Origin: Teichococcus aestuarii | GTDB taxonomy: Bacteria; Pseudomonadota; Alphaproteobacteria; Acetobacterales; Acetobacteraceae | NCBI RefSeq assembly: GCF_003116135.1 | Contig: NZ_PDOA01000002.1 | Coordinates: forward strand, 124,001-188,000 | Length of the DNA: 64,000 nucleotides | Direction of reading: 5' to 3' | Shown: in pieces, positions 39,659 to 60,263 of the stretch | Layout: each line of letters starts with the position of its first letter | How positions within the stretch are numbered: the first letter of the stretch is position 1 | The notes under the pieces: model-generated | The model's input: only the letters and a program-made list of their open reading frames with translations | The model's database searches: none | Told to the model about the DNA's origin: nothing | Translations under genes and position numbers: made by a program

Positions 39659-40915
39659 CTAGAAAAGCCCCGCGAAGGGCAGCACCACCAGCCGGTCCCC
39701 CGGCGCCACGCCGAGGGACTCTTCCGGCAGCTCGGCGAAGGCATCGCTCTGCGTCAGGGAGGAGAGCAGCCCCGCCCCCTCCCGCGCGTATTTGGCGGCC
39801 ACCGGCAGCCCGCCCGGCGCGCCGGGGCAGAGCGTGACGCGCACATATTCCCGCCGCCCCGCCTTCTTGCGGTAGGGAAAGGCAGCTTCCGCCAGGAAGC
39901 GCGGCAGCGGCACCGGCGCCGCGCCGCAGAGCCGCAGCGCCAGCGGCCGCGCCAGGTGCAGGAAGGTGACGAAGGCCGCCACCGGGTTGCCCGGCAGCCC
40001 CAGCACCGGGGTTCCGCCGATGACGCCCATCGCCGCCGGCCGCCCCGGCTTCAGCGCCAGGCGCCAGAACACCAGGCTGCCCGCCGCCTCGATGGCGGCG
40101 CGCACATGGTCCTCCTCCCCCGCCGAGACGCCGCCGGAGGTGAGCAGCATGTCGTGCGCCCCGGCCGCCTCGCGCAGCGCGGCACGGGTGGCCTCGGCGC
40201 GGTCGGGCAGGATGCCGAGATCGACCGGCTCCACCGGCAGCCCGGCCAGCAGCGCCAGCAGGGAGAAGCGGTTGCTGTCGAAGGTCTGGGCCGGGCCGAG
40301 GGGGGTGCCGGGCGTGGCCAGCTCGTCGCCCGTGCTGAACACGCCGATGCGCGGCCGCGCCGTGACGGCGAGCGCCGGCAGGCCGAGCGCCGCGGCCAGG
40401 CCGATGGCCGGCGGGTCGAGCAGGCGCCCGGCCGGCAGGGCCAGCGCGCCCTGCGCCACATCCTCCCCCGCCGGGCGGCAATTGGCGCCGGGCCTCAGCC
40501 CGGCCGGCAGCAGCAGCGCGCCGCCCTCCAGCCGGGCATCCTCCTGCATCATCACCGTGTCGGCGCCCGGCGGCATGGGGGCACCGGTCAGGATGCGGCA
40601 GGCCGTGCCGGGGGCGAGCGCCGCCGCCGCCTGCTGCCCGGCGGCGAGGCGGCCAGCGAGGCGCAGCCGCGTCTCCTCCCCCGCGCGCAGATCGGCATGG
40701 CGGAAGGCATAGCCATCGACGGCGCTGTTGAAGAAGGGCGGCAGCGGGTGCGGCGCGAACAGGTCGGCCGCCAGCACGCGGCCGCGCGCCTGCGCCAACG
40801 GCACCGTCTCGGTGCCGCCGAGGGGGGGCACGCGCGCCGCGATCAGCGCCGCCGCCGCCTCCACCGAGAGCAGCGCGCCGCCGAAGGCGAAGCAGTCGTC
40901 GCTCAGCTGGGCCAT
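39659..40915 (-). CDS. moeA: Molybdopterin molybdenumtransferase MoeA
   Basis: A 418-residue enzyme inserting molybdate into adenylylated molybdopterin, giving molybdenum cofactor. Signatures: GCxF-like start FAFGGALLSVEAA, TGAPMPPGADTVMMQED, LLTSGGVSAGEEDHVRAAI (the active-site TSGGVSxG), and GLPGNPVAAFVTF. The N-terminus AQLSDDCFAFGG is typical. It overlaps mobB by 13 bases. With mobB and modABC it provides cofactor for the adjacent formate dehydrogenase. Confidence 0.94.
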   Translation of the reverse strand: MAQLSDDCFAFGGALLSVEAAAALIAARVPPLGGTETVPLAQARGRVLAADLFAPHPLPPFFNSAVDGYAFRHADLRAGEETRLRLAGRLAAGQQAAAALAPGTACRILTGAPMPPGADTVMMQEDARLEGGALLLPAGLRPGANCRPAGEDVAQGALALPAGRLLDPPAIGLAAALGLPALAVTARPRIGVFSTGDELATPGTPLGPAQTFDSNRFSLLALLAGLPVEPVDLGILPDRAEATRAALREAAGAHDMLLTSGGVSAGEEDHVRAAIEAAGSLVFWRLALKPGRPAAMGVIGGTPVLGLPGNPVAAFVTFLHLARPLALRLCGAAPVPLPRFLAEAAFPYRKKAGRREYVRVTLCPGAPGGLPVAAKYAREGAGLLSSLTQSDAFAELPEESLGVAPGDRLVVLPFAGLF

Positions 40916-41406
40916 GGCGCAGCGTAGCGCAGGACGAGGCCGGCCACCGCCTCGATATCGTCCAGCCCGGCATGGGGCAGGGCGCCGCCGGGGGGCGGCG
41001 TGTCCGTGGCGGCGGCGCGGATGGCGGAATCCTCCGGGTGCAGCCAGGGCTTGCCGTTGGCGGCGCGGAACACCTCGATCTTGGGGTGGTGGTCGCGCTT
41101 GAAGCCCTCCACCAGCACGAGGTCTACCGGGGCGAGCTGCGCCAGCAGCTCCGGCAGGGCCGGCTCGGGGGCGCCGCGAAGCTCGGTCATCAGCGCCCAG
41201 CGCTGCGCGGAGGAGACCAGCACCTGCTGCGCGCCCGCCTGCCGGTGGGTGTGGCTGTCCTTGCCCGGCTGGTCCACGTCGAAGCGGTGGTGCGCGTGCT
41301 TCACGGTGGAGACCGTCAGGCCACGGCCGGTCAGGCAGGGAATCAGCCGGGCGAGGAGGGTGGTCTTGCCGGCGCCACTCCAGCCGGCCAATCCGATCAG
41401 GCGCAT
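40903..41406 (-). CDS. mobB: Molybdopterin-guanine dinucleotide biosynthesis protein B
   Basis: A 167-residue GTP-binding accessory factor of bis-MGD cofactor synthesis. The P-loop GLAGWSGAGKTTLLARL is near the N-terminus, followed by TVKHAHHRFDVDQPGKDSHTHRQAGA, the MobB signature, and VLVEGFKRDHHPKIEVFR. The ATG at 41406 is chosen; a TTG 30 bases earlier would run into the terminator. It lies directly downstream of the formate dehydrogenase terminator and overlaps moeA, consistent with a small cofactor operon supplying an MGD enzyme. Confidence 0.94.
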   Translation of the reverse strand: MRLIGLAGWSGAGKTTLLARLIPCLTGRGLTVSTVKHAHHRFDVDQPGKDSHTHRQAGAQQVLVSSAQRWALMTELRGAPEPALPELLAQLAPVDLVLVEGFKRDHHPKIEVFRAANGKPWLHPEDSAIRAAATDTPPPGGALPHAGLDDIEAVAGLVLRYAAPWPS

Positions 41407-41434
41407 GCGGGAAGCCTTATCCGGGGCGGCGGGC

Positions 41435-41467
41435 AAAAAAAAGCCGGGGGAATGGAATTCCCCCGGC
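41435..41467 (-). terminator. Rho-independent terminator of the formate dehydrogenase operon
   Basis: A perfect 11-bp stem, GCCGGGGGAAT / ATTCCCCCGGC (loop TCC on the minus strand), is followed on the minus strand by eight T residues. It lies 22 bases after the fdhC stop and just upstream of mobB. Confidence 0.9.
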
Positions 41468-41489: not shown

Positions 41490-42890
41490 TCAGTCGGCGC
41501 CGGCGGGGCGCGTGGCGGGCTCGGGCCGCACGGATTCATGCGCCCGCTTCAGCTCGTCATCCACCCACATGCTGTGGTGCTCGCGGGCCCAGTTGTAGTC
41601 CACCTTGCCGCTGCCCATGGCGCTGAAGGCGCCCTCCATGCCCAGGCTGCCGATGTAGATATGCGCCAGCATGGCCGCGATCATCAGCATCGACAGCACG
41701 CTGTGCAGCATGTGGCCGATCTGCTGGCCCTCGATGTTCAGGACGAAGAAGGGGAACATCAGCAGGAAGCCGGAGGCCGCGACCGCGCCGCCGCCCAGCA
41801 CCGTGATCCAGAACACCGCCTTCTGCCCGCCGTTGAAGCGCCCGGCCTGCGGGTGCGCATCGCCGATGAAGCCGCCGCCATTCTTCAGCCAGACCCAGTC
41901 CAGCTTGTTCGGGATGTTGTCCCGCACCCAGAGCGCCAGCAGCCCGAGGACGCCCAGGGTGAAGGGGAAGGCCAGGAAGTTGTGGGCGATCTTGCCGAGC
42001 TCGGAGACGGTGGTGAAGGCCTCCGGCCCGATCACCGGCCGCAGCAGGTGCCGGCCATAGACCAGGTTGAGCCCGGAGAGCGCCAGCACGATGAAGGTGC
42101 TGGCCGTCAGCCAGTGCAGCGAGCGCTCCAGGAAGTTGAAGCGCTGCATGGTGCGGCCGGAGGGGCCGTGGCGCATGCGGATGCGCCCGCGCACCAGGAA
42201 GAACAGCGCCAGCACCGCCAGCACCCCGAGGATGGCGACGCCGCCGATCCACATCATGGTGCTGTTGCGGAAGGCCCGCCAGTCCCGCCCTTCCGGCTGC
42301 ACCAGCACGGCCAGCTTGTCGTCCGGGATGCTGACGATGCCGGTGATGCGCCGGCCGGTCAGCGCGCTCTGCAGCTCCAGCTCCTCGGCGGAGAGGTTGC
42401 GGTTGCCCAGCGGCGGCGGGGCCGGGATGGGCTGCACCGGCGTCGGCGCCACCTGCGGCTGGGGCGCGGCCGGCGTGCCGGTGGGCTGCTCCGGGTCGGC
42501 GCTGTTCGGCACCTGCCGCTGCCCGGTCTCGCCGGCGCTCTGCACCTCGGGCACCGGGGCCTGTACCTCCGAGGAGCCCTGCGGCGGGCCGGCGCCATCG
42601 TCCTGGGGCAGCTGCTGCTGCGTCTGGGAGGCGGGCGGCAGGGCCTGGCGCACCTGCGGGTCGGTGGTGGTGCGCGCGGCGGCGCCGGCATCGGCCGGGG
42701 CCTGCGGCTGCGCCCCGGTCTGTGGCTGCGCCGGCGCTGGCGCCTGCGGCTGGGCCGGGGCGGGCGGCGCTTCCGCCGCCGGAGCCGCAGCAGGCGGCGC
42801 CTCGGCCGCCGGGGCCTGGGCAAGGGCCGGCGCGCCCAGCAGGGGCGCGGCGGCGGCCAGGGCGATCAGCGTGGAACGGAGCATGCTCAT
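41490..42890 (-). CDS. fdhC: Formate dehydrogenase cytochrome b556 (gamma) subunit with Pro/Ala/Gln-rich N-terminus
   Basis: A 466-residue membrane subunit that passes electrons to quinone. After a signal-like segment (1-25), residues about 26-163 are low-complexity Pro/Ala/Gln, then a small conserved piece LSAEELELQSALTGRRITGI, then five helices. Heme-b histidines are probably in ERSLHWLTASTF, KIAHNFLAF and LMIAAMLAHIYIG. E. coli FdnI is 217 residues; the extra N-terminus would lie in the periplasm. It overlaps fdhB by one base (TGATG) and ends at a strong terminator. The start at 42890 is set by that overlap. Confidence 0.9.
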   Translation of the reverse strand: MSMLRSTLIALAAAAPLLGAPALAQAPAAEAPPAAAPAAEAPPAPAQPQAPAPAQPQTGAQPQAPADAGAAARTTTDPQVRQALPPASQTQQQLPQDDGAGPPQGSSEVQAPVPEVQSAGETGQRQVPNSADPEQPTGTPAAPQPQVAPTPVQPIPAPPPLGNRNLSAEELELQSALTGRRITGIVSIPDDKLAVLVQPEGRDWRAFRNSTMMWIGGVAILGVLAVLALFFLVRGRIRMRHGPSGRTMQRFNFLERSLHWLTASTFIVLALSGLNLVYGRHLLRPVIGPEAFTTVSELGKIAHNFLAFPFTLGVLGLLALWVRDNIPNKLDWVWLKNGGGFIGDAHPQAGRFNGGQKAVFWITVLGGGAVAASGFLLMFPFFVLNIEGQQIGHMLHSVLSMLMIAAMLAHIYIGSLGMEGAFSAMGSGKVDYNWAREHHSMWVDDELKRAHESVRPEPATRPAGAD

Positions 42891-43486
42891 CAGACGTCCA
42901 CCGTCTCGCGATAGGCGGTGCGCCAGCCCCAGGCACCGCTGCCATAGCCGCGCTTCTGCACCCGCTCCTTGTAGATGGAGGCGATGATGTCGCCATCGCC
43001 CGCCATCAGCGAGCGGGTGGAGCACATCTCGGCGCAGAGCGGCAGCTTGCCCTCGGCGATGCGGTTGGCGCCGTACTGCGCGTATTCCGCCGCCGTGTTG
43101 TCCTGCTGCGGGCCGCCGGCGCAGTAGGTGCACTTGTCCATCTTGCCGCGCCCGCCGAAATTCCCGACCTTCGGGTATTGCGGGGCGCCGAAGGGGCAGG
43201 CGTAGAAGCAGTAGCCGCAGCCGATGCACAGGTCCTTGTCGTGCAGCACGATGGCATCCGCCGTCGTGTAGAAGCACGAGACGGGGCAGACGGCGGCGCA
43301 GGGCGCGTCCGTGCAGTGCATGCAGGCCATTGAGATCGAGCGCTCGCCCGCCTTGCCGTCATTGATGGTGACGACGCGGCGGCGGTTGATGCCCCAGGGC
43401 ACCTCGTTCTCGTTCTTGCAGGCGGTGACGCAGGCGTTGCACTCGATGCAACGGTCGCTGTCACAGAGGAATTTCATGCGGGCCAT
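42890..43486 (-). CDS. fdhB: Formate dehydrogenase iron-sulphur (beta) subunit
   Basis: A 198-residue protein with four [4Fe-4S] motifs: CDSDRCIECNACVTAC, CMHCTDAPCAAVCP, CIGCGYCFYACP, and CTYC with a later Cys pair (LPLCAEMCSTRSL). It wires electrons from the catalytic subunit to cytochrome b. It lacks the C-terminal membrane helix of E. coli FdnH, which matches the shorter soluble beta subunits of this FDH type (Fdh3B). It is 17 bases downstream of fdhA and coupled to fdhC. Confidence 0.95.
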   Translation of the reverse strand: MARMKFLCDSDRCIECNACVTACKNENEVPWGINRRRVVTINDGKAGERSISMACMHCTDAPCAAVCPVSCFYTTADAIVLHDKDLCIGCGYCFYACPFGAPQYPKVGNFGGRGKMDKCTYCAGGPQQDNTAAEYAQYGANRIAEGKLPLCAEMCSTRSLMAGDGDIIASIYKERVQKRGYGSGAWGWRTAYRETVDV

Positions 43487-46658: not shown

Positions 46659-47264
46659 TTATGCCGGCAGCCCGGCCGCCGTCGCCTCGATCTCCATCGC
46701 CGCGCGTCCCAGCGCGCCGACGGCCCGGTAGAACTGCGCCGCCTCGGCCGCCTGCAGGTCGGCGAAGCAGCGCGTGGCCCAGGGCTGCACGTGGCGGGTG
46801 AAGAAGCCGGCGGCTTCCTCCGGCCCGGCGGGGAACACCCCCGCGATCAGCCCGGCCATGGTCTCGCAGAGAAACCCCAGATGGTCCTCCGGTTCCGCCA
46901 CGCCGGGCGCGCGCTCGACGCCAAGCTGGCCCAGCGTGGCGCGCAGCTCGGCCAGCGGGCGCTCATGCAGGAAGCCGGTGAGGTAGTAGGAGGCGAAGGG
47001 CAGCAGCTCCCCGCGCCCGACGCCGATGAACAACGCATGGTACTCGCGCTCCGCCTGCGCCGGGTCGGTCTGCCGCGCCGCCTCGGCCAGCTGGCCGTAG
47101 GCATCGCCCAGCACGCTGCCCGCCTCGCCGCGCAGCGCGCGCAGATTGGCCAGCAGCGCGCCATCCGGCGGCGCCACCAGCAGCCGCCCCAGCAGGGCGA
47201 ACAGCCGGGCGCGCTCCAGCTCCAGCAGATCGAGGGCGGCGGTCGGCGAGACCGGGGTGGTCAT
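46659..47264 (-). CDS. TorD-family molecular chaperone for formate dehydrogenase
   Basis: A 201-residue all-helical chaperone: LELERARLFALLGRLLVAPPDGALL, then EYHALFIGVGRGELLPFASYYLTGFLHERPLAELR, the TorD/DmsD signature (YxxLF-GxG-ELLPYxSxY), and EPEDHLGFLCETMAGLIAG. Such proteins bind TAT signal peptides and hold the apoenzyme until cofactor is loaded. The start at 47264 gives MTTPVSPTAALDLLELERA. It is the first gene of the fdh operon and lies directly downstream of a 147-base AT-rich control region. Confidence 0.9.
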   Translation of the reverse strand: MTTPVSPTAALDLLELERARLFALLGRLLVAPPDGALLANLRALRGEAGSVLGDAYGQLAEAARQTDPAQAEREYHALFIGVGRGELLPFASYYLTGFLHERPLAELRATLGQLGVERAPGVAEPEDHLGFLCETMAGLIAGVFPAGPEEAAGFFTRHVQPWATRCFADLQAAEAAQFYRAVGALGRAAMEIEATAAGLPA

Positions 47265-47384
47265 GCGTCGGGCGGTCCGATGGTCAGAGGTTTTGAACGG
47301 CAGCCGGCCGCTCCGCGAAGAGAGGCCATATACCATTCTGACTCATCCGGTCGGTTATGAGCAAGTATCCGGCTCAGACACCAT

Positions 47385-47411: not shown

Positions 47412-48176
47412 CTATTGTGGAACGGCCCCGCCATGCCGGCGGCGGGCCGGCAGCGCAGCCTCGGCCGGTGCAGTCTCGCCCGGCCCAGCCTCGCCCGCTG
47501 CGGTCTCGCCCGCTGCCGTCACGGCCGGCGCGGCCTCCGGCAGCGGGCTGAGCCGCAGCGGCGTCAGCGGCGCGGAAGCCAGAGACGGGAGCGGCGGCGC
47601 GCCTTCCAGGGGGCCGTCCAAGGAGCCGTCCACGGGACCCTCCATGGGGCCTTCCGCCACAGCCGCCTCGCCGGCTGGGCTTCCCTGCGGCGCGCCCGCC
47701 TCCGCATCCTCGGCGGCGGCCTCGTCCTCCTCCGGCTCGGGCGGGGCGCCGATCGCCTGCGCCAGCAGCTTGCGCAGGTTGCCGCCCAGCTCCGGCGAGA
47801 AGCCGGGCACCCCGTCGGCGGCATTGAAATCCCACGCATAGTCGGCGGGGCCGACGAAGTCGCGTATGCCGGGGTCGAGCGACCACATCCGCCGCAGCGC
47901 CGCCTGCCGCAGCAATGCCGGCACGTTGGGTTTGAGGAAGGCGGTGAAGTCGCTCTCCGGCCCCAGGCTTTCCAGCGGCGGCAGGCTGGCGGGGTCGAAC
48001 GCGTCCGCCGCCGCGGCCGGATCAGGCCCAACGGCGGGAAAAGCGGCAGGCGGAACGGCGGACGGGGCGGCGGGCATGGGCGCCGCCCTGCCCGGCGCCG
48101 GCGGTTCCGGCGCGGCCTCCGGCTCCACGCCGCGCTTGCGGCGGGACCAGCGGCTGAGGAAGCCCTCGCCGCTCAC
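47412..48176 (-). CDS. DUF3306 domain protein, FDH-associated
   Basis: A 254-residue protein starting at a GTG inside the stop of the DUF3305 gene (GTGA). MSGEGFLSRWSRRKRGVEPE opens a basic N-terminus; the conserved core FTAFLKPNVPALLRQAALRRMWSLD and PADYAWDFNAADG (about residues 65-120) identifies DUF3306. The last 110 residues are acidic, then Gly/Ala/Glu repeats (GETAAGEAGPGE). It is soluble, with no signal peptide. DUF3306 is nearly always beside DUF3305 and formate dehydrogenase genes, but its function is unknown. Confidence 0.85.
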   Translation of the reverse strand: MSGEGFLSRWSRRKRGVEPEAAPEPPAPGRAAPMPAAPSAVPPAAFPAVGPDPAAAADAFDPASLPPLESLGPESDFTAFLKPNVPALLRQAALRRMWSLDPGIRDFVGPADYAWDFNAADGVPGFSPELGGNLRKLLAQAIGAPPEPEEDEAAAEDAEAGAPQGSPAGEAAVAEGPMEGPVDGSLDGPLEGAPPLPSLASAPLTPLRLSPLPEAAPAVTAAGETAAGEAGPGETAPAEAALPARRRHGGAVPQ

Positions 48177-48700
48177 CGCTCCCCTCCCCCCGTCCGGCCG
48201 CCCGGCGCGCGGCGGGCCAGTGCCTCCGGGTCGGCCCGGTCGCGCTGCCGCTTCGAGAAGCCGCGCTCGCGGTGGTGGCGGGCCACATACGCCTCCAGCG
48301 GCCCGTGCAGGAAGGCCGGCAGCCTCAGGCTCTCCAGCGTGTCGTTGCCGACATCGGCGTAGAGATGCGCCTCGCCCGGGTCGATCGTCACCAGGTGCAG
48401 CGCCATGCCCGGCTCGCCGGCAGCGGGGCGCAGCACCACCCACAGCCGGGGGTCCTCGCTCTCCAGGTTGCTCAGGTAGTTGCTGGTGTCGGTCGGGTGC
48501 AGCGCCACCGCGGCATGGCCGGCCAGGAACAGGGCGCGCCCCTCCTCCTGCCGCAGCAGCGTCCAGGGCGGCACATCGGGCGCCTCCGCCAGCACCTCCA
48601 CGACGCGCCAGGACCAGTCCGCCCAGGGGCTGGACGAGGGCCGCCGCTCGGCGATGACGGCGACGCGGATGTGCAGGCTGTCGGGCGTGTCGGTCAGCAT
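48173..48700 (-). CDS. DUF3305 domain protein, FDH-associated
   Basis: A 175-residue cytosolic protein: SLHIRVAVIAERRPSSSPWADWSWRVVEVL, then HPTDTSNYLSNLESEDPRLWVVLRPAA and AYVARHHRERGFSKRQRDRADPEALA. The W-x-W-x-V opening and the NYLSNLES segment are the DUF3305 signature. The basic C-terminal tail may touch nucleic acid or a partner protein. It is coupled to DUF3306 by GTGA overlap and lies seven bases after DUF6352. The two DUFs probably form a complex acting in formate dehydrogenase maturation or electron transfer; this is inference from context. Confidence 0.85.
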   Translation of the reverse strand: MLTDTPDSLHIRVAVIAERRPSSSPWADWSWRVVEVLAEAPDVPPWTLLRQEEGRALFLAGHAAVALHPTDTSNYLSNLESEDPRLWVVLRPAAGEPGMALHLVTIDPGEAHLYADVGNDTLESLRLPAFLHGPLEAYVARHHRERGFSKRQRDRADPEALARRAPGGRTGGGER

Positions 48701-48707
48701 CGGGGCC

Positions 48708-49733
48708 TCACAGCGCCGCCTCGGCGGCGATCAGCGGCAGGCCGGTGGCCAGGTTCTGCGGCTTCATGCGCACCAGCTTGGCCGGGTTCATCGCCAGCGC
48801 CAGGTAGACGGGGCGGCCGGCCAGGCGCGGCAGCACGCGCGTCGTCTCGCGGAACTCCAGCACGCCGAGCCAGAGGATGCGCGCCAGCCGCTCCTGCGCC
48901 ACCGCCTGCCCGTTCCAGAGGTCGTTGGCGATGCCGGTGGCCTCGCTGTCCAGCCCCACATGCCAGGACCAGTCTGCATCCTCGATCAGCCGGGTGGGGC
49001 GGATCGTCACCTCCTCGCCCAGCACGTGCCGGATGAAGCGCTCCAGCGCGCGGGCCAGGCCCTGCTGGCCGGGGCGGCCCTCGGCGATGTCGAGCGCGTA
49101 GTCATGCGCGTCGGAGCGGGCGGCATAGGCGGCCGGGTCGGCCTCGCCCAGCACGTCCAGCTCCACCTCGCGCGGGGTGGCGCCGGCCTCGGTCAGCAGC
49201 CGGCCCAGCGCGCCGAGGTCGCCATCCGCCGCGCGGGCGGCCACCACCTCCTCGTCGGCCAGCAGCAGCGCGCCCTGGTGGATGGCGGCGCGCTGCGGGC
49301 GAAAGAGGCATTCGGCGGCGCGCAGCGCATAGGCATCCGCCTCCCCCTCCATCGCCGCGCGGGCGATGAGCTGGGTCAGCATCTGCAGGAACAGCGGCGG
49401 CACGCCCGCCACGCCCTCGCGATAGAGCGCCAGCCAGGCGGCCTCCAGCGTGGGGTGGGCCATCACCCGGTCGCGGAACGTGAGAAAGACCTGCCAGTTC
49501 TCGGCCGCGTCCGGGTCGGCCAGCGCCGCCAGGGTGGCGGGCGCCACCGGGTGCAGCGGCTCCGCCAGCAGCGCCGCGTGCAGGGCGCGCTCGGCGCCGC
49601 AGGCCTCCTCCGGCGGCACCAGCTCGGGGCGGGCGAGGAAGGCGCGCCAGAGGTCCGGCGTCGGGACCAGGCGCCCCGCCTCGTCGCGGTCGCAGAGCTG
49701 GTGGCCGGAGGCGATCCAGAAATCAGGGGTCAT
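48708..49733 (-). CDS. DUF6352 family protein, FDH-associated
   Basis: A 341-residue soluble protein. It opens MTPDFWIASGHQLCDRDEAG and contains LVPTPDLWRAFLARPELVPPEEACGAER, a mostly helical middle and a C-terminal MNPAKLVRMKPQNLATGLPLI. I recognise it as DUF6352, known to me only from clusters with DUF3305/DUF3306 and formate dehydrogenase. No catalytic motif is evident. One or two cysteines (QLCDRD, EEACGAE) could matter. It is tightly packed between DUF6505 (34 bases) and DUF3305 (7 bases). Confidence 0.8.
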   Translation of the reverse strand: MTPDFWIASGHQLCDRDEAGRLVPTPDLWRAFLARPELVPPEEACGAERALHAALLAEPLHPVAPATLAALADPDAAENWQVFLTFRDRVMAHPTLEAAWLALYREGVAGVPPLFLQMLTQLIARAAMEGEADAYALRAAECLFRPQRAAIHQGALLLADEEVVAARAADGDLGALGRLLTEAGATPREVELDVLGEADPAAYAARSDAHDYALDIAEGRPGQQGLARALERFIRHVLGEEVTIRPTRLIEDADWSWHVGLDSEATGIANDLWNGQAVAQERLARILWLGVLEFRETTRVLPRLAGRPVYLALAMNPAKLVRMKPQNLATGLPLIAAEAAL

Positions 49734-49767
49734 GCGCCATTACCAGAACGGGAAAGGGAAGCGCGGG

Positions 49768-50319
49768 TCATCCGCGCCGGGGAAGGGCGGCGAGGTCCAC
49801 CGCCTCGGGCTCCTCCCCCTCCACCTCGACGATGCCGAACACCGGCAGGCTGCCGAAATCGCTGTGCGGCGTCTCGCGCCGGTGCAGGGTGCGGAAGCGC
49901 TCGCGCACCTCTCCGCCCTCCACCGCGCGGGCGAGCGCCAGCACCGTGCCGGGCGGGTGGCCGCAGAGCGATTCGGCGAAGGCCAGCTCCTCCTCGGCGG
50001 CGGCGCGGGCGGCGGCCTCGTCCGGCGCGCCATAGGCGGCGCGGATCCGCGCGGCCAGGGTCGCCACCGCCGCGGCGCGCTCGGCCGGCGTGGCCTCGGC
50101 CACCTCCACCAGGGTGGAGAAGCCGAAGCTGCCGAGGCCGAGGAAGCCGGCGCGGAATTCCTGCCGCCGCTTGCCGGCGAGCGCGGCCGGGTCCTCGTCC
50201 CAGAAGTCGAAGCCACCGGGCACGGCCCACTCCCCCGGCGCGGCGGCGCGGGAGAACACCACCGTGTCGGACGGGTCGAGCCGCAGCGTGCGCGGCAGGA
50301 AGGTGCGGCGCGGGGTCAT
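49768..50319 (-). CDS. DUF6505 family protein, FDH-associated
   Basis: A 183-residue cytosolic protein: FLPRTLRLDPSDTVVFSRAAAPGEWAVPGGFDFWDEDPAAL and RQEFRAGFLGLGSFGFSTLVEVAEA, with a C-terminal TPHSDFGSLPVFGIVEVEGEE. The Gly/Phe-rich LGLGSFGFST is its most distinctive motif. I recognise it as DUF6505, found beside DUF6352 and the ligase-fold protein. Its stop overlaps the end-of-gene of the ligase-fold gene start region by 4 bases (ATGA), indicating translational coupling. Function is unknown. Confidence 0.8.
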   Translation of the reverse strand: MTPRRTFLPRTLRLDPSDTVVFSRAAAPGEWAVPGGFDFWDEDPAALAGKRRQEFRAGFLGLGSFGFSTLVEVAEATPAERAAAVATLAARIRAAYGAPDEAAARAAAEEELAFAESLCGHPPGTVLALARAVEGGEVRERFRTLHRRETPHSDFGSLPVFGIVEVEGEEPEAVDLAALPRRG

Positions 50320-51005
50320 GCGGCCTCCAGCGGGCGGCGCTCATCGGCCGCGCCCTCGCGGCGCAGCAGCAGCGCACCGGTGGCGGGGTCGAGGCCGCGC
50401 CGCGCGCCCTCCATCCACTCCTCCACCTCCAGCCGCGCCAGCACCCGCTCGGCCATGGCGCGGAAGCCGCGCGACTGCCATTCGGAGAGGCCCGCCATCA
50501 GGTGCCGCGCCCAGGCGGCCACCAGCTCCCCGGGTGGAATCTCCAGGAAGCCCTCCTCGGCCAGCGCGGTGCGGCCGGGGTCGCGGCCGGGCTCATACCC
50601 CTCCGGGTGGCGCCAGGCCAGGCGGATACCCACCACCAGCCAGTCCGGCACCGCCTCCTCCGGCAGGCCGGGCGGCGCGCCGAGGAAGGCCTCGCCCACC
50701 TGCGCGCCGTTCAGCACGATGCCGGCGGGCCAGCGCAGCGTCACCGGGATCTCGGGCGGGCCGAGCACCACCAGCGCATCGGCGGCGGCGCTGGCGGCCG
50801 CCAGCAGGCCCGCGCGGGCGGCGGCGAGGCTCTCCTCCGGCTCCAGCACCAGCGCGGCCTCGATGCGGTCCGGCGCCGCCAGCCAGGGCAGCAGCCCGCC
50901 ACCCCGCTCCGGCGCCAACGCCATGGCCCGGGCGCGCGCATCCTCGTCCGGCGCCAGCTTCAGCGGGGCGAACAGGCTGGGCAGGGGCGGCAATCCTTCG
51001 TGCAT
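50316..51005 (-). CDS. Biotin/lipoate-protein ligase-fold protein (BPL_LplA_LipB_2 type), FDH-associated
   Basis: A 229-residue protein with the BirA/LplA-like fold. Readable parts are PAFAPLKLAPDEDARARAMALAPERGGGLL-like N-terminus, ALVLEPEESLAAARAG, then ALVVLGPPEIPVTLRWPAGIVLNGAQVGEAFLG and VPDWLVVGIRLAW, and the tail ATGALLLRREGAADERRPLEAA. In BirA the segment after the beta-strand has KWPND...KxxG; here the lysines are replaced (RWPAGIVLNGAQVG), so ligation of biotin or lipoate is doubtful. It could be a non-catalytic or novel-substrate member. The ATG at 51005 is used; 51035 is an alternative. It is the first gene of the accessory set. Confidence 0.78.
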   Translation of the reverse strand: MHEGLPPLPSLFAPLKLAPDEDARARAMALAPERGGGLLPWLAAPDRIEAALVLEPEESLAAARAGLLAAASAAADALVVLGPPEIPVTLRWPAGIVLNGAQVGEAFLGAPPGLPEEAVPDWLVVGIRLAWRHPEGYEPGRDPGRTALAEEGFLEIPPGELVAAWARHLMAGLSEWQSRGFRAMAERVLARLEVEEWMEGARRGLDPATGALLLRREGAADERRPLEAA

Positions 51006-51106
51006 TCTGGGTGCTCTTCCCTCGTCATCCGGCATCCGCGTGGATATATGCGCTTCGGCCCGCGCCGGGACAGCCGACGGGAAAATTACTGCGGGCAGGA
51101 GAATTC

Positions 51107-53152
51107 ATGACACATCCGGCCAACACCCCCGCCTCTCCCCGCGGCCGCACCGTCTTCGCCTGCAGCTGCGAGGACACCATGGTGCTGGACGAGGGCGCGC
51201 TGGCGCGGGGCTGCGGCGGGCGGCTGCGCACCGCCGAGCAGCTCTGCCGCGCCCAGCTGGACCGCTTCATGGCGGCGCTGGGCGAAGGCGACGTGACGGT
51301 GGGCTGCACCCAGGAGGCGCCGCTGTTCCGCCAGGAGGCGGAGGCCGCCGGCCATGCCGGCGCGCTGGACTTCGCCAATGTGCGCGAGCAGGCCGGCTGG
51401 TCGCGGGAGGGTGCGCAGGCCGGGCCGAAGATGGCCGCCCTGCTGGCCGCCGCCGCCGTGCCGATGCCCGCCACCCCCCTGGTGCCGCTGGAGAGCCAGG
51501 GCGTGACGCTGATCCTGGGCCGCGACGAGGCGGCCCTCGACTTGGCCGAGCGGCTGAAGGACCGGCTCGACATCACCGTGCTGCTGACCGGCGAGGCCGA
51601 GGTGGCGCCCCGCCCGCAGGCCGAATACCCCGTGCTGCGCGGCCGCGCCCGCAGCGCCACCGGCTGGCTCGGGCATTTCGCCGTCGCCATCGACGGCTAC
51701 GCGGCGGCCGCCCCCTCCTCCCGCGCCGCCTATCGCTGGGGCGCGCCGCGCGACGGCGCCGCCAGCGAATGCGACATCCTGATCGACCTCACCGGCCGTG
51801 CGCCGCTCTTCCCGACGCACGAGGTGCGGCAGGGCTACCTGCGCGCCGCGCCGGGCGACGCGGTGGCGCTGGAACGCATCACCCGCGAGGCGGGCGAGCT
51901 GGTCGGGCAGTTCGACAAGCCGCGCTTCATCCGCTTCGACGCCGGGCTCTGCGCGCATTCGCGCAACAAGCGCACCGGCTGCACCCGCTGCCTCGACCTC
52001 TGCCCCACCGGCGCCATCACCCCCTCCGCCAAGGGGCACTGGGACAGCGTGGCGATCAGCGCCGAGATCTGCGCCGGCTGCGGCGCCTGCGCCGCCATCT
52101 GCCCGACCGGCGCCGCGCAGTACGACCTGCCGCCGACGGATGCGGTGCTGCGCCGCATCCGCGCCCTGCTGCTGGCCTACCGCGCGGCGGGCGGCCAGGC
52201 CCCCACCCTGCTGCTGCACGAGGCGGCGGGCGAGGCGATGATCGACGCCCTCTCCCGCCACGGCCCCGGCCTGCCGGCGCATGTGCTGCCACTGCGGCTG
52301 CACGCCGTGACGGCGGCCGACCTCGCCCTGCTGGTGGCGCCCTTCGCCTGGGGCGCGTCGGACGTGCAGCTGCTGCTGCCGGCCCGCCGGCCGCACGGCG
52401 CCGAGGGCGTGCTGCGCAATGTGGACTATGCCGAGGCGGCGCTCGCGGGCCTCGGCCTGCCGCATGCCCCCGGCGTGATCGAGACGGACGACCCGTTCAC
52501 CCTCGCGGAGATGCTGGCCGCCGCGCCGCGCCCGGCGCCTGCCGCGCGGGCGGAGTTCCTGCCGCTCGGCGCCCCGCGCGAGATCCTGAGGACGGCGCTC
52601 TCCGCGCTGCGCGCGGCGGCGGAGGCGGCGCCGGCGGTGATCCCGATGCCGGAGGCGGCGCCCTTCGGCGCGGCGCATGTGGCGGTGGAGGGCTGCACCC
52701 TCTGCCTCGCCTGCACCATGGTCTGCCCCACCGGCGCCTTCGCCGCCAATCCGGAGCGGCCGGAGCTGTCCTTCCTGGAGGATGCCTGCGTGCAGTGCGG
52801 CCTCTGCGCCAACACCTGCCCGGAGAAGGTCATCAGCCTGGAGCCGCGGCTGGACCTGCGGCCGGAGGCGGCGCAGCGCCAGGTGGTGAAGCAGGAGGCG
52901 CCGGCCATCTGCCCGTCCTGCGCCAAGGCCTTCGGCACCCGCGCCTCGATCGACCGGGTGAAGGAGCGGCTGCGCGCCGGCGGCCACTGGATGTTCACCG
53001 ACCCGGCGCGGCTGGCGATGCTCGACCTGTGCGAGGATTGCCGCGTCTCGGCCGCCACCAACAGCCAGATCGACCCCTATGCCAGCACCGCCCGCCCGCG
53101 CCCGATGACCACCGAGGACTATCTGCGGGAGGGTGGCCCGGAGGAGGGCTGA
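51107..53152 (+). CDS. Multi-[4Fe-4S] cluster protein divergent from the FDH accessory genes
   Basis: A 681-residue soluble iron-sulphur protein. Two ferredoxin-type clusters lie at Cys282/292/295/299 and Cys322/325/328/332 (ICAGCGACAAICP), and two more near the C-terminus (EGCTLCLACTMVCP and DACVQCGLCANTCP). A terminal CPSC/CEDC pair may bind zinc or iron. The N-terminus has FACSCEDTM and VGCTQEAPLF, reminiscent of heterodisulfide-reductase or electron-transfer modules. A good AGGAGA ribosome site precedes the ATG. It is divergent from the ligase-fold gene and probably an electron carrier or maturation factor for formate dehydrogenase. Confidence 0.85.
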   Translation: MTHPANTPASPRGRTVFACSCEDTMVLDEGALARGCGGRLRTAEQLCRAQLDRFMAALGEGDVTVGCTQEAPLFRQEAEAAGHAGALDFANVREQAGWSREGAQAGPKMAALLAAAAVPMPATPLVPLESQGVTLILGRDEAALDLAERLKDRLDITVLLTGEAEVAPRPQAEYPVLRGRARSATGWLGHFAVAIDGYAAAAPSSRAAYRWGAPRDGAASECDILIDLTGRAPLFPTHEVRQGYLRAAPGDAVALERITREAGELVGQFDKPRFIRFDAGLCAHSRNKRTGCTRCLDLCPTGAITPSAKGHWDSVAISAEICAGCGACAAICPTGAAQYDLPPTDAVLRRIRALLLAYRAAGGQAPTLLLHEAAGEAMIDALSRHGPGLPAHVLPLRLHAVTAADLALLVAPFAWGASDVQLLLPARRPHGAEGVLRNVDYAEAALAGLGLPHAPGVIETDDPFTLAEMLAAAPRPAPAARAEFLPLGAPREILRTALSALRAAAEAAPAVIPMPEAAPFGAAHVAVEGCTLCLACTMVCPTGAFAANPERPELSFLEDACVQCGLCANTCPEKVISLEPRLDLRPEAAQRQVVKQEAPAICPSCAKAFGTRASIDRVKERLRAGGHWMFTDPARLAMLDLCEDCRVSAATNSQIDPYASTARPRPMTTEDYLREGGPEEG

Positions 53153-53159
53153 GGCCGCC

Positions 53160-53690
53160 TCAGCCCAGGACGATGCGGGTGGCGCCGTCCTGGCTGCTGG
53201 CCTGCAGCCCGAGCTCGGCCAGTGCCTCCAGCGCTCCCTCCGGCGCCGGCCAGTTCACCTCGATGGCGCTGCCATCCAGCCGCAGCAGGGGCGGCTGGCC
53301 GGGCGGCAGGCCGCGCGCGCCGGCGGTCAGGTCCAGCAGGGCGAGGTCCACCTCCGGCCGGGGCGGCGCGATGGTGGCGGTGGCCAGCACCTCCACCTTC
53401 AGCGGCTTGCCGACGGCCAGGGCCAGCACCGGCCGCACCGCCTCCAGGAACTTGCCGGAATCCACCTGCCCTTCCTCATGCGGGCGGCCGAGGCGCAGAT
53501 AGGCGCGGATCAGCGCCTCCATCTCCCGCGCCCCCTGCAGTGCGCGGCCGAGGCGCACCGCGTTGCGCTCCTCCGGTGGCAGCGTGGCCTGCACGGCCTC
53601 CAGATTGGCCTGCAACACCATGTAGAGGTTGTTCATGGCGTGCTGCATCGGGCGAGCCAGGCCAGCCAGGCGGGCGGGGGCGTCGGTCAT
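53160..53690 (-). CDS. Histidine kinase-like fragment (DHp-type), PBP-coupled
   Basis: A 176-residue soluble protein. LARPMQHAMNNLYMVLQANLEAVQATLP resembles the H-box helix of histidine kinases or ChpT-type phosphotransferases, with His17 as candidate; a second helix RAYLRLGRPHEEG completes a dimerisation-like hairpin. The C-terminal 90 residues resemble a degenerate ATPase domain without visible N, G1 or G2 boxes. Its start overlaps the penicillin-binding protein stop (ATGA), so they are coupled. Its function is unknown; it may be a phosphotransfer or regulatory partner. It ends seven bases from the convergent Fe-S gene. Confidence 0.6.
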   Translation of the reverse strand: MTDAPARLAGLARPMQHAMNNLYMVLQANLEAVQATLPPEERNAVRLGRALQGAREMEALIRAYLRLGRPHEEGQVDSGKFLEAVRPVLALAVGKPLKVEVLATATIAPPRPEVDLALLDLTAGARGLPPGQPPLLRLDGSAIEVNWPAPEGALEALAELGLQASSQDGATRIVLG

Positions 53691-55507
53691 GGAAGTCCTT
53701 CCTCCACGATATCGCGGAACAGTTGTGCCGGCAGGGTGCCGCCGCGGACGTCGTCCATCGGCCGGGCGTCGTCATTGCCCAGCCAGACGCCGATGACCAG
53801 GGGGGGCGCAAGCCCAATGAACCAGGCATCGCGGAATTCCTGCGTTGTACCGGTCTTGCCTCCCACAACCTTACCCGGCACGAGGGCGGCGCGGCCGGTG
53901 CCGCGCGCCACCACGGCGCCGAGCATGCGCCGCATCATCGCCGCGTGCTCGGCCGAGAGCACGCGCTGCGGCGCGGTGCGCGGCACGGCCAGGAGGCGGT
54001 GGGCCGATTCGGCGCGCGCCACGCCATAGGGCTCCACCCGCAGGCCGCCATTGCCGAAGGCGGCATAGGCGGCGACGAGGTCGATCAGCGTGGCCTCCGC
54101 CGTGCCCAGCGCCAGCGAGGCATTGTCCGGGAACGGTCCGCGCAGCCCGAGTCGGCGCGCCACCCCGGCCACATCGCGGGCGCCGCCGGCGCGCAGCAGC
54201 ACCCGCACGGCGGCGGTGTTGACGCTGTGCGCCAGTGCCTCCTCCAGCGAGATCTCGCCGCGGCCACGCCAGGCGCCGTTGCGCGGCGACCAGCCGGCCA
54301 GCGTCAGCGGCGCGTCGGAGACCTCCTCCTCCGGCGTGGCGCCCGCCTCCAGCGCCGCCAGCCAGACGATGGGCTTGAACACCGAGCCCGGCTGCCGCCG
54401 CGCGGTGACGGCGCGGTTGAAGGGGCTGGCGCGGTAGCTGCGGCCGCCGGCCATGGCACGCACCGCGCCATCGCGCAGGTCGAGCGCCAGCACGGCGCCC
54501 TGCCCCACCCCCGCCGCCGCGCCGGGGCCGGCCAGCAGCGCCTCCAGCCGCGCCTCCACCGCCGCCTGCAGCCGCAGGTCCAGCGTGGTGCGCAACACCA
54601 GGTCGCCGGCGCCGGGGTAGTGCTCGGCCAGGTCGTCCTGCACCCAGTCGGAGAACCAGCCGGAATCGCCGGAGGGGCGGCGCGGCAGGGCCATGCGCTC
54701 GGCCTCCTGCGCGGCGCGGCGGGCGGTGATGAGGCCCACCTCGGCCATGGCCTCCAGCACCTCGGCGCCGCGGCGGATGGCGGCGTCCGGCGCGCTGCGC
54801 GGGTTGAGGCGGGAGGGCGCCTTGGGCAGCCCGGCCAGGATCGCCGCCTGCCAGAGCGAGACGCGCCGCGCCGGCACGCCGAAATAGAGCCGCGCCGCCG
54901 CATCCACCCCATAGGCGCCGCCGCCGAGATAGACGCGGTTGAGGTAGATCTCCAGCAGCTGGTCCTTGCTGAAGCGCCGCTCCAGCCACAGCGCCAGAAT
55001 CGCCTCCTGCACCTTGCGGCGCAGGCTGCGCTCGGGCGTCAGGAACAGGTTCTTGGCCAGTTGCTGCGTCAGGGTGGAGCCGCCCTGCACCACCCGGCCA
55101 GCGCGCAGGTTGGCGACGAGCGCGCGCGCCAGCCCGACCGGGTCCAGGCCGAAATGCTCGCGGAAGCGCCGGTCCTCCACCGCCATCAGCGCGCCGGGCA
55201 GGTAGGCGGGCAGGTCGTCCAGCCGCACCACCTCGCCATACAGGTCGCCGGCGGTGGAGAGCAGGCGGCCATCGGCGGCCTCCAGCGTCACGGAGGGGCG
55301 GCGCGTGGTGGCCAGCGCCTCCTCCGGCCGCGGCAGGTCCCAGGCGAAGTAGAGCAGCAGGGCGGCGCCGGCGAAGCCCAGCCAGACCAGCAGCACCAGC
55401 AGCCGGCCGAGCCAACGCCCCAGGCCGCCGCGCTGGCGCGGCCGGGCGGCGGCGGAGGGGGAAGGCGGCGGCGCGGCGCGGCCACCACGCGCCGGAGAGC
55501 GGGCCAT
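53687..55507 (-). CDS. Class A penicillin-binding protein (transglycosylase/transpeptidase)
   Basis: A 606-residue bifunctional peptidoglycan synthase. A basic N-terminus precedes a membrane anchor (about 34-56). The GT51 transglycosylase domain has the catalytic Glu111 in VEDRRFREHFG, then GGSTLTQQLAKNLFL and RKVQEAILALWLERRFSKD. The transpeptidase has SVFK (375-378), SVN (428-430) and KTGTT (551-555). It is shorter than E. coli PBP1a, without the OB insertion, in line with the compact alphaproteobacterial class. Coupled with the downstream kinase-like gene by ATGA. The transporter-free neighbourhood gives no further hint. Confidence 0.93.
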   Translation of the reverse strand: MARSPARGGRAAPPPSPSAAARPRQRGGLGRWLGRLLVLLVWLGFAGAALLLYFAWDLPRPEEALATTRRPSVTLEAADGRLLSTAGDLYGEVVRLDDLPAYLPGALMAVEDRRFREHFGLDPVGLARALVANLRAGRVVQGGSTLTQQLAKNLFLTPERSLRRKVQEAILALWLERRFSKDQLLEIYLNRVYLGGGAYGVDAAARLYFGVPARRVSLWQAAILAGLPKAPSRLNPRSAPDAAIRRGAEVLEAMAEVGLITARRAAQEAERMALPRRPSGDSGWFSDWVQDDLAEHYPGAGDLVLRTTLDLRLQAAVEARLEALLAGPGAAAGVGQGAVLALDLRDGAVRAMAGGRSYRASPFNRAVTARRQPGSVFKPIVWLAALEAGATPEEEVSDAPLTLAGWSPRNGAWRGRGEISLEEALAHSVNTAAVRVLLRAGGARDVAGVARRLGLRGPFPDNASLALGTAEATLIDLVAAYAAFGNGGLRVEPYGVARAESAHRLLAVPRTAPQRVLSAEHAAMMRRMLGAVVARGTGRAALVPGKVVGGKTGTTQEFRDAWFIGLAPPLVIGVWLGNDDARPMDDVRGGTLPAQLFRDIVEEGLP

Positions 55508-55626: not shown

Positions 55627-57702
55627 TCAGTCGAGCAGGCCGGGCTCCGGCAGGCGGCCCTCGGCGGCGCCGAACTGCAGGAAGTGCAGCAGCGGGTTCA
55701 CGCCCGCCTCGGCCACATCCGGGTTCGCCGCCAGATAGGCCGCGGCGTCGAAGCCGCCGAAGCTCTCGCGCCCCTCGGCGAAGCCATGCAGCAGGTAGTG
55801 CATCATCGGGTCCATGCCGGCCCCGGCGACGTCGGCATGGGCCTCGAGATAGGCGCCGGCATCGAAGAAGCCGTTCGGGTCGCGGCCCTCGGCCCGGCCA
55901 TGCTGCTCGTAATGCGCGCGGGCGGAGAGGCCGGAGCGCGCCACATCGGCGTTGGCCAGCATGTAGAAGGCGGCGTCGAACCCATCCGCCGCCACCGTGC
56001 CGATGGCGGCGGTGGCGGCGCGGCCCTCGGCCTGGCCATGCGCCAGGTAGTGCTCCAGCGGGTTCAGCCCGGCTTCCGCCACATCGGCGTTGCGCGCCAG
56101 GTAGGCCTCGCCGTCGAAGCCGGCGGAGGGGTCGCGGCCCTCCTTCCAGCCGAACTCGCGGTAGTGTTGCAGCGGGCTCGCCCCCGCCGCCGCCACGTCC
56201 GGGTTGGCGGCCAGATAGGCCCCGGTGTCGAACAGCGCGTTCGGGTCGCGCCCCTCGCGCCAGCCGGTGTTCTCGTAATGCGCCTTCAGGTCCACCCCGG
56301 CCGCCCAGACATCGGGGTTGGCCATGGCGTAGGCGAGGCTGTCGAACAGCGCGTCGCCATCGTCGAGGCGCAGCAGGCCGTCGGCGAAGAGCAGGCGCTC
56401 GACGGAGAGCAGCGTGGTGGCGCCGGCCGGGCCGGTCAGCACCAGAGCCTCGCCCTCGCGCGCCACGGCGTGGTCGGCCAGGCGGCCGGAGAGGATGGCG
56501 GTGTCGGTGCCCTCGCCGCCTTCCAGCCGGTTGCCGCCGGGGCCGCCGATCAGCGTGTCGTTGCCATCTCCGCCCGTCAGCGCATCGTCGCCGGCACCGC
56601 CGAAGAGGATGTCGTCCCCCGCGCCGCCATCGAGGAAGTCGATGCCGTCCGTGCCCTGCAGGATGTCGTTGCCCTCGGTGCCGTCGCTGGCCAGGTGGTC
56701 GGCCACCGCCTCCAGGCCGAGATCGGGCTGGTCGGTGAAGAAGCCGTCCACGCCGAGCTCAATCAGCAGCCGCATCTCGTCCTGGGCCGAGAGCGGGGTG
56801 CCGTCCACGCCCAGCACCAGGAAGGGCTCCTCGGCGCGCACGGTGTAGGGAATGACCTTCAGCCCCAGCGAATGCGCGTTCTCCACCAGCGGCCGCACCT
56901 CGCCGGTGAGCTGGCGGGCGATCAGCGCCACGCCGTCGCCATCGCCATCCACGGGCGTGATGGCGCGGCGCAGCAGGATGGCGTCCTTGCTGGGCCCGAC
57001 GATGTCGGCATAGCGGGCGATCTCGGTCAGCGCCTCGACCGTGTAGGAATTGCCGAGCTGGACGATCTGGAAGTCCACCCCGGCGCCGGGCATGATCTCG
57101 TCGTTCAGGCGGATCAGGTTGGCGGTCTCGAAGGACTGGACGAACACCCGCTCGCGGTCGGTGAAGCCGAGCGCCACGAGCTGCTCGACCAGCATGGCGC
57201 TGGTGTCGAGGCCGATCGACTCGAAGAAGGACGGGCTCTTGGTCTCCGGCGCGATGGCGATCTTGCGGCCGGTCTCCGCCTCCACCTGGCGGACCAGGGC
57301 GATGATCTCCGCCAGCGTCGGGATCTCGAACCGGCCGTCATAGCTGGCGCTCTCGGGCCGCACCTCGCCGAGCCGCTCCTTGGCGCGCAGCGTCTTCAGC
57401 TCGGCCAGGGTGAAGTCCTCGGTGAACCAGTTGGTCACCGCGCGGCCGCCGATCGTCTTGGTGACGAGGCGGTCGGCGAATTCCGGCAGATCGGCGACGT
57501 TGGTGGTGTCGGACAGGGTGTGCTCGTGGCGGGCCACCAGCACGCCGTCCTTGGTGGAGACGAGATCGGGCTCGATGACGCTGACGCCCATCTCGATCGC
57601 CAGCCTGTAGGCTTCCAGCGTGTGCTCGGGGCGGTACCCGCTGGCGCCGCGATGGGCGATGACGACCGGCGGCTGGCCGTCCAGCGTGGCGAAACTGACC
57701 AT
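55627..57702 (-). CDS. Secreted glycerophosphodiester phosphodiesterase fused to RTX and six tandem repeats
   Basis: A 691-residue protein. Residues 14-335 form a GDPD barrel: [16 protein letters not shown] carries His17/Arg18, IEPDL gives Glu44 and Asp46, and ARHEHTLSD has His59, so the catalytic set is complete. Residues 343-400 contain GGxGxDxLxGG-type RTX calcium repeats. From 452 to the end, six copies of a 31-34 residue unit ([20 protein letters not shown], ...HY...G..EGR) occur. There is no N-terminal signal, consistent with type I secretion via the C-terminus. The start at 57702 follows GAGAGGAAG. Confidence 0.88.
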
Positions 57703-57920
57703 GGTTCCCGGCTTCCTCTCGATGCGGACTCTTGGCATGGAAGGCCGGGGCGGCGATGGCGGCACGCTCTTCCGGGCGGAGCCAGCGCCGCCCGGCACAT
57801 CTCATGCCCGGCCATAGAAGCCAGCAATGACAGGCGGATGAGTATCAGATTACGCGAAGGTTAAACGAGGCCGGGGCGGGGGCCGTCCTCCGGCCTCCCG
57901 CGGTCTGCAGAAAGCCGGCC

Positions 57921-60168: not shown

Positions 60169-60263
60169 CCGGGCGCTTCTAGTCGAGCCCTGGTTCCTGC
60201 GCAAACCAGCCGGGGCTTATCGGAGCGAGTCGCTTCGCATTTCTCGATGGATGGATCGGCAGC

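Follow-up and report, generated by a model that had tools for sequence, protein, structure and literature searches.

What does a block of largely uncharacterized genes contribute to the formate dehydrogenase (FDH) beside which it stands? The question is raised by a 64,000-nucleotide stretch of the Teichococcus aestuarii contig NZ_PDOA01000002.1 (positions 124,001–188,000), which we call the window and whose own numbering is used below. An initial annotation had placed genes for DUF3306, DUF3305, DUF6352 and DUF6505 proteins and a ligase-fold protein on one strand, 5' of torD-fdhX-fdhABC, and a 681-residue protein with multiple iron-sulfur (Fe-S) clusters, here called the polyferredoxin, divergent from them; Pfam matches and coordinates agree on both points. 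We consider it likely that the products of these genes form a dedicated kit, which in the cytoplasm matures and proof-reads an FDH of the FDH3 type, an enzyme exported by twin-arginine translocation (Tat).

This reading is based on co-occurrence. Scores to the NCBIfam model FDH3_beta split cleanly across our sample of 229 Pseudomonadota genomes: 29 places in 28 genomes reached at least 314.7 bits and all others stayed at or below 99 bits, giving 29 FDH3 loci, 28 further ones and that of the window, whose FdhB is itself of the FDH3 type (Table 1). The genomes in which DUF3305 was found are the same 28 that have FDH3, and all genomes with DUF6505 (17), the FDH-type ligase-like protein (16) or DUF6352 (12) were among these 28. 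Frequent occurrence in FDH-free genomes, which would have spoken against the coupling proposed by the initial annotation, was thus not seen for DUF6352 (12 of 12 in FDH3 genomes), DUF6505 (17 of 17) or DUF3305 (28 of 28), and DUF3306, DUF3305, DUF6352 and DUF6505 were absent from all 14 named control genomes. The FDH3 genomes are spread over 12 families, seven of which (f1, f2, f8, f12, f27, f35 and f50) also hold sampled genomes with neither FDH3 nor DUF3305; therefore, the match between FDH3 and DUF3305 is not the effect of a single clade.

The genes are also linked in position. DUF3305, DUF3306, TorD, FdhA, FdhB and FdhC were present in 29 of 29 FDH3 loci, in varying order. The polyferredoxin was found in 27 of these loci and nevertheless occurs in every one of the 28 genomes: of the two loci without it, one lies in a genome with a copy in its other FDH3 locus (G200), and in the other genome (G016) the gene stands about 31 kb from DUF3305. 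The ligase-like protein together with DUF6505 was found in 16 loci and DUF6352 in nine. The complete window order from polyferredoxin to fdhC was seen in eight of the 29 loci, the window included, which, together with the six genes present in every locus, argues that the grouping does not arise by chance. The association of DUF6352 with FDH3 is not only positional, because three genomes (G016, G019 and G202) carry DUF6352 far from FDH3, in loci where no FDH genes were recognized nearby by eye (L113, L116 and L117). The polyferredoxin match in G202 (L270, G202:C1:537919-540015) holds one in-frame TGA, which could be a gene end, an error or recoding.

A search for DUF6352 in one genome per species returned at least 562 confirmed matches, the nearest named relative of the window protein among the best 80 being from Pseudoroseomonas rhizosphaerae (92% identity). 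We surveyed the gene neighbourhoods of these best 80, and the conserved coupling to one FDH type proposed by the initial annotation emerged here as well. fdhA was present in 54 of the 80 loci, and the other 26 lacked fdhA, fdhB and fdhC; 15 of these end at contig ends. A renewed search with FDH3_beta, covering the 26 genomes without fdhA in the locus, located the gene elsewhere in 24 of them, so that 78 of the 80 loci go with an FDH of the FDH3 kind. The two remaining genomes are metagenome-assembled genomes with the locus on short contigs of 3,950 bp (L125, with TorD and FdhX matches present) and 6,977 bp (L193). Eight Azospirillum loci (L171, L175, L180–L184 and L194) hold DUF6352 without other kit genes, with one to three FDH3 beta genes elsewhere.

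Where could such proteins meet the enzyme? The FDH of the window is of a Tat-exported FDH3 type. FdhA bears a Tat motif in all 29 FDH3 loci and FdhC, a cytochrome b, is a membrane protein, so that mature FDH3 should face the periplasm. Within the matched regions, none of the ligase-like, DUF or TorD proteins exceeded a hydropathy threshold of 1.9 for a membrane segment, and one of 27 polyferredoxins did so marginally. No export signal was seen by eye in the kit proteins of the window. Because FdhA carries its Tat motif throughout and the kit has no visible membrane or export signal, the kit probably meets FdhA and FdhB only before Tat export, which favours maturation over electron output. The initial annotation had offered a dedicated maturation, cofactor-protection or electron-output pathway; from the co-occurrence with FDH3, dedicated maturation is the best reading, and electron output is disfavoured by the Tat motif, the membrane-bound FdhC and the kit's lack of a membrane segment.

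The polyferredoxin is nevertheless the protein for which an output role has to be weighed: it could take formate electrons to a cytoplasmic acceptor, with the DUF proteins assembling that branch. Besides four Fer4-type motifs it has a CxxC...CxxC pair at the C-terminus, 19 cysteines are invariant in 27 of 27 homologues, and it accompanies FDH3 in every FDH3 genome. Its N-terminal domain matches solved HdrA (8rvv/8rvu) with an E-value of 3.4e-5 over positions 38–153 in a profile of 17 sequences, and Pfam gave nothing above cut-off for that domain alone; three short forms (L098, L099 and L104), among 11 aligned rows, lack it. The ferredoxin-like proteins HydN and YsaA are likewise thought to give FDH-H other electron routes, according to the accessible text of PMC6004506. 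We nevertheless regard electron output as improbable, given that the mature enzyme should face the periplasm and the polyferredoxin has no visible export or membrane signal. The GxGxxG motif of the thioredoxin-reductase-like domain, by which HdrA binds flavin adenine dinucleotide, is not kept: by eye, the GGGVAG of HdrA aligns to a stretch without these glycines, from which the polyferredoxin may be a relay without flavin. A more plausible output is a protein whose WD40 propeller is followed by a class I cytochrome c at the C-terminus; it could accept electrons in the periplasm, and its gene stands beside FDH3 clusters in 28 of 115 relatives' loci. Examples are L096:1605-2930, L228:4236-5531 and L229:19120-20421, in which the architecture was judged by eye; in the window it was not found, the only match being to an ordinary cytochrome c (60183-60797). 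When the C-terminal CxxC domain was compared by profile with the PDB, all of the best 60 of 199 rows were zinc-finger proteins, aligned at the first CxxC, which we take as the likeness of short repeated metal motifs.

If the kit matures FDH3, which known factor might it replace? FdhD was present in 28 of 28 FDH3 genomes and in 94 of 229 overall. FdhE (PF04216, E ≤ 1e-5, anywhere in the genome) was found in no FDH3 genome (0 of 28), including that of the window, and in 25 of the 201 genomes without FDH3; 24 of these 25 belong to the 94 with FdhD. Among these 94, the chance of no overlap between FdhE and FDH3 is p = 4e-5 with relatedness ignored, and families f2, f8, f12, f27 and f35 each hold some genomes with FDH3 and others with FdhE, never one with both. 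Our sample disagrees on FdhE with a 2023 review, according to the accessible text of which operons for periplasmic FDHs systematically go with fdhE (PMC10609526), and with PMC4464133 (see below). In the part of PMC2535785 on Shewanella oneidensis that bears on these genes, FdhE (SO0104) is listed with the FDH-N genes SO0101 and SO0102, and, separately, a regulator mutant shows a joint fall of SO4503 (FdhD), SO4504–SO4505 (conserved hypothetical), SO4506 (iron-sulfur) and SO4509 (fdhA); PMC5826389 names SO4507 as the chaperone FdhT. From their position we infer that SO4504 and SO4505 are the DUF3306 and DUF3305 proteins. FdhE thus seems to follow FDH-N rather than FDH3, and both can share one genome.

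The ligase-like protein, a ligase-fold protein in the initial annotation, belongs to PF16917 and might accordingly attach lipoate or biotin to FDH or to an accessory subunit. The family is broad: it matched 124 of the 229 genomes, mostly at 27–58 bits, ordinary biotin ligases scoring weakly. We counted as FDH-type the 16 copies above 160 bits; the next match, at 95.9 bits in G016, is a BirA between nuo and coaX-like genes and was dropped, leaving 16 rather than 17, and the rest lie at or below 58 bits. The RGRxGRxW adenylate loop and KWPND are catalytic motifs of biotin and lipoate protein ligases (BirA/LplA/LipB). In the alignment, neither the loop nor the KWPND lysine motif is present in any of the 16 FDH-linked copies, and L115, a BirA aligned with them, retains both as HGRGRQGRNW and KWPND. 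By pattern, the motifs were absent from all 63 ligase-like copies in the DUF6352 loci, the pattern being known to fit L115 by reading only. The idea that an FDH partner is lipoylated or biotinylated, which came from a ligase fold beside an HdrA-like protein, was rejected for want of these motifs, and a modifying ligase of any such kind is very improbable. The ligase fold named in the initial annotation thus stands, and ligase activity is not supported; judged from its sequence, the protein is best read as a binding protein.

A third reading would have the kit regulate or protect enzyme synthesis, sensing formate, metal or oxygen, rather than build the enzyme. The confident AlphaFold2 models of DUF3305 (mean predicted local distance difference test, pLDDT, 91.5) and DUF6352 (pLDDT 92.1) had no Foldseek match in the PDB at E < 0.001, the best E-values being 0.33 and 0.51, and a sensor role would be possible for two such predicted folds. 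In the PDB, sequence searches found no relative of DUF6352 and no convincing one of DUF6505 (best E 0.17) or DUF3305 (best E 0.025); DUF6352 has 26 invariant columns in 62 sequences and DUF6505 has 14 in 43. Helix-turn-helix or sigma-54 regulators stand near the cluster on annotated plasmids of S. meliloti and Salipiger, and the joint fall of SO4503–SO4506 and fdhA in the Shewanella regulator mutant would also suit a regulatory role. This reading appears unlikely to us, since a Pfam search of the kit proteins themselves turned up neither DNA-binding nor signalling domains (regulators near the loci were not surveyed). DUF3305 and DUF3306 have been called putative membrane proteins in the accessible text of PMC4464133; with a 19-residue hydropathy window at or above 1.9, no membrane segment was found in the matched regions of 29 DUF3305 and 29 DUF3306 proteins.

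The wider gene context includes enzymes of cofactor synthesis. Among the best 80 DUF6352 loci, MobB was found in 34 and MoeA in 33. One locus (L085) also encodes a TupA-like tungstate-binding protein, FdhD, MobA, MobB, MoeA and, next to the ligase-like gene, an Fe-S carrier of the ApbC/Mrp type, and another (L090) has a TupA-like protein and ApbC; MobA of the former and ApbC of the latter exceed NCBIfam cut-offs and FdhD the Pfam cut-off, and the TupA matches and the first ApbC lie below cut-off and are named by best match. The annotated S. meliloti plasmid has the window order from polyferredoxin to fdhC, with mobA, FdhD and an ABC transporter nearby, and in the Salipiger plasmid apbC separates the polyferredoxin from the ligase-like gene. 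In moving from neighbourhood to protein, the 382-position NCBIfam model NF011058 joins MobA (positions 11–198, shown by the L085 MobA) to DUF3305 (positions 212–368, shown by the window protein), and its DUF3305 part is also matched by ten of ten other DUF3305 proteins, with scores of only about 31 bits for two. In two of 327 alphaproteobacterial genomes (G466 and G367), mobA and DUF3305 follow each other in the same frame, one stop apart, and DUF3306 comes next. The T. aestuarii genome has FdhD and MobA matches side by side on another contig (G000:C10:124905-126279) and a second FdhD on C47. A small DUF6494 protein stands beside kit genes at L229:9470-9661 (63 residues), at L228:3929-4135 (68 residues) and in 12 other loci; DUF6494 has no match in the window.

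A working model may be put together as follows. Apo-FdhA, possibly with FdhB, would be held in the cytoplasm by TorD guarding the Tat signal peptide, and a chain from MobA through MobB/MoeA to FdhD would deliver sulfurated bis-molybdopterin guanine dinucleotide (bis-MGD), DUF3305 and DUF3306 acting as the adaptor at the hand-over. The polyferredoxin could give electrons or Fe-S clusters for loading or for reductive activation of the metal centre. The pseudo-ligase, DUF6505 and often DUF6352 might add a binding or checkpoint layer in many alphaproteobacteria and in a gammaproteobacterium-like group (f39), before the finished enzyme is released to Tat. The kit would take the place that FdhE has for E. 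coli FDH-N/O. In a bolder version, which we put forward tentatively, it would be a new type of metalloenzyme maturase, independent of FdhE, in which a flavin-less, HdrA-like polyferredoxin drives reductive loading of tungsten- or molybdenum-bis-MGD or of Fe-S clusters, gated by two folds unmatched in the PDB, DUF3305 (tied to MobA) and DUF6352, and by a biotin-ligase fold turned sensor or binder.

Several observations weigh against a maturation kit. The co-occurrence p-values ignore relatedness, and co-occurrence does not separate maturation from a regulatory or structural role. Of the 28 FDH3 genomes, 16 lack DUF6352 and 11 lack DUF6505, and the added layer is thus dispensable for FDH3 in general. 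The non-overlap of FdhE and FDH3 has a p of only 0.03 over all 229 genomes, a diverged FdhE may lie below the cut-off in FDH3 genomes, and S. oneidensis appears to have both FdhE and a kit-type cluster, so that the exclusion is not absolute. According to the accessible text of PMC4464133, 97% of species with TorD-fdh have FdhD/E in trans, and 60% of its dmsD-fdhGHI operons contain the DUF3305/DUF3306 pair. The C-terminal CxxC...CxxC domain of the polyferredoxin was tried as an FdhE-like domain and showed no homology (hhalign probability 0.9%), and no single-frame MobA-DUF3305 fusion exceeded the model cut-off in the 327 alphaproteobacterial genomes. In the open-access literature, we found no mutant, interaction or activity data for the DUF proteins.

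The features of the window are collected in Table 1. The minus-strand genes would be transcribed in the order ligase-like, DUF6505, DUF6352, DUF3305, DUF3306, TorD-like, FdhX, fdhA, fdhB, fdhC, mobB and moeA, and the five accessory families each lie far above their Pfam cut-offs. The tight packing described in the initial annotation is borne out, and "mostly overlapping" was slightly too strong, as two of the four junctions overlap: ligase-like/DUF6505 and DUF3305/DUF3306 by 4 bp each, with gaps of 34 bp at DUF6505/DUF6352 and 7 bp at DUF6352/DUF3305. The divergent stretch between the polyferredoxin and the start of the ligase-like gene is 71 bp. The FdhX profile used for relatives is impure, matching also inside TorD frames, and its count (27 of 29 loci) was not used as evidence; the fdhX of PMC12421819 is the name of a plasmid series, unrelated to the FdhX protein. 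Beyond the polyferredoxin, 53160-53690 (minus strand) encodes a 176-residue protein without a Pfam match, probably unrelated to FDH; its start shares 4 bp with the stop of a gene resembling those for penicillin-binding proteins (53687-55507, by eye). The product of 55627-57798 (minus strand) resembles glycerophosphodiester phosphodiesterases and carries GGxGxD repeats like those of RTX proteins (by eye).

Table 1. Genes of the FDH3 locus in the window, with the match on which each name is based.
Feature	Positions	Strand	Basis
Polyferredoxin, 681 aa: HdrA-like N-terminal domain, four Fer4-type motifs, C-terminal CxxC...CxxC pair	51107-53152	+	Pfam Fer4 families
Biotin/lipoate-ligase-fold protein, catalytic motifs missing (pseudo-ligase)	50316-51035	-	PF16917 BPL_LplA_LipB_2, 160 bits
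DUF6505 protein, 183 aa	49768-50319	-	PF20115, 190 bits
DUF6352 protein, 341 aa	48708-49733	-	PF19879, 235 bits
DUF3305 protein, 175 aa	48173-48700	-	PF11749, 123 bits
DUF3306 protein, 254 aa; GTG start at 48176, chosen by hand	47412-48176	-	PF11748, 88 bits
TorD/DmsD-like chaperone	46659-47336	-	PF02613, 100 bits
FdhX, small Tat-targeted protein, 70 aa	46423-46635	-	TIGR02811, 56.3 bits (cut-off 48.45)
fdhA, catalytic subunit, Tat motif RRSFL, 964 aa	43504-46398	-	PF00384, PF01568, PF04879
fdhB, FDH3-type beta subunit	42890-43486	-	NF038355 (FDH3_beta), 331.5 bits (cut-off 240)
fdhC, cytochrome b subunit; end certain, start approximate	41490-42870	-	TIGR01583, 147.6 bits, over cut-off, frame 41490-43277
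mobB	40903-41436	-	PF03205, 171 bits
moeA	39659-40915	-	PF03453, PF00994, PF03454

How much of this is new? The initial annotation spoke of an undescribed system, which stands for the function and for DUF6352 and DUF6505 and does not for the DUF3305/DUF3306 pair, whose place beside fdh operons has been in print since 2015 (PMC4464133). In the open-access literature, DUF6352 and DUF6505 appeared in no paper found, DUF3305 only in that one, and no functional study of the kit was found, searches with FDH3/DUF6494/WD40 and Fdh3A/Fdh3B included. As far as the literature was searched, it is new that the genes go strictly with FDH3, that FdhE is absent, that the ligase is dead, that mobA occurs next to DUF3305 and that two of the folds are unmatched. 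FDHs attract interest for CO2 reduction, and their production in foreign hosts is held back by maturation, according to the accessible part of PMC13396061. Should the kit prove to be the FDH3 maturase, it would offer testable functions for four DUF families, name genes to co-express and account for the working of a group of periplasmic FDHs in the absence of FdhE; it also qualifies the generalization in PMC10609526 cited above.

Among the closest known systems are the NCBIfam models FDH3_beta (fdh3B) and TIGR02811 (formate dehydrogenase region TAT target): the FdhB and FdhX of the window are members above cut-off, and the models name the enzyme and FdhX but do not cover the accessory set. The tungsten enzyme MeFDH1 is cytoplasmic. 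Its maturation in Methylorubrum extorquens requires moeA (moeA1), mobB and fdhD, which are essential according to PMC13197769, and mobB-moeA also lie 3' of fdhC in the window; MeFDH1 is a two-subunit enzyme, and the outline and section 4 of that paper make no mention of DUF3305, DUF3306, DUF6352 or DUF6505. The polyferredoxin shares with HdrA the N-terminal domain and ferredoxin-type motifs, without the flavin motif as judged by eye. HydN and YsaA of E. coli are much shorter than the polyferredoxin and lack the HdrA-like domain. Both are ferredoxin-like and needed for full dye-linked FDH-H activity, and PMC6004506, in its accessible text, favours an electron-transfer role. The maturation of E. 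coli FDH-N/O by FdhD and FdhE is alike in using accessory proteins for a Tat-exported, cytochrome-b-linked FDH, and FdhD is shared; FDH-N/O uses FdhE, whereas the FDH3 genomes, without detected FdhE, have DUF3305, DUF3306 and the polyferredoxin instead. Redox enzyme maturation proteins (REMPs) of the TorD/DmsD type have their counterpart in the TorD-like chaperone of every FDH3 locus, but this TorD, unlike them, travels with several partners without an assigned function. Co-occurrence, linkage and the hydropathy of matched regions indicate that the kit is dedicated to one exported molybdo- or tungsto-enzyme, genetically coupled to it and not itself exported, as is typical of REMPs, and we rate it as a probable dedicated redox-enzyme maturation module.

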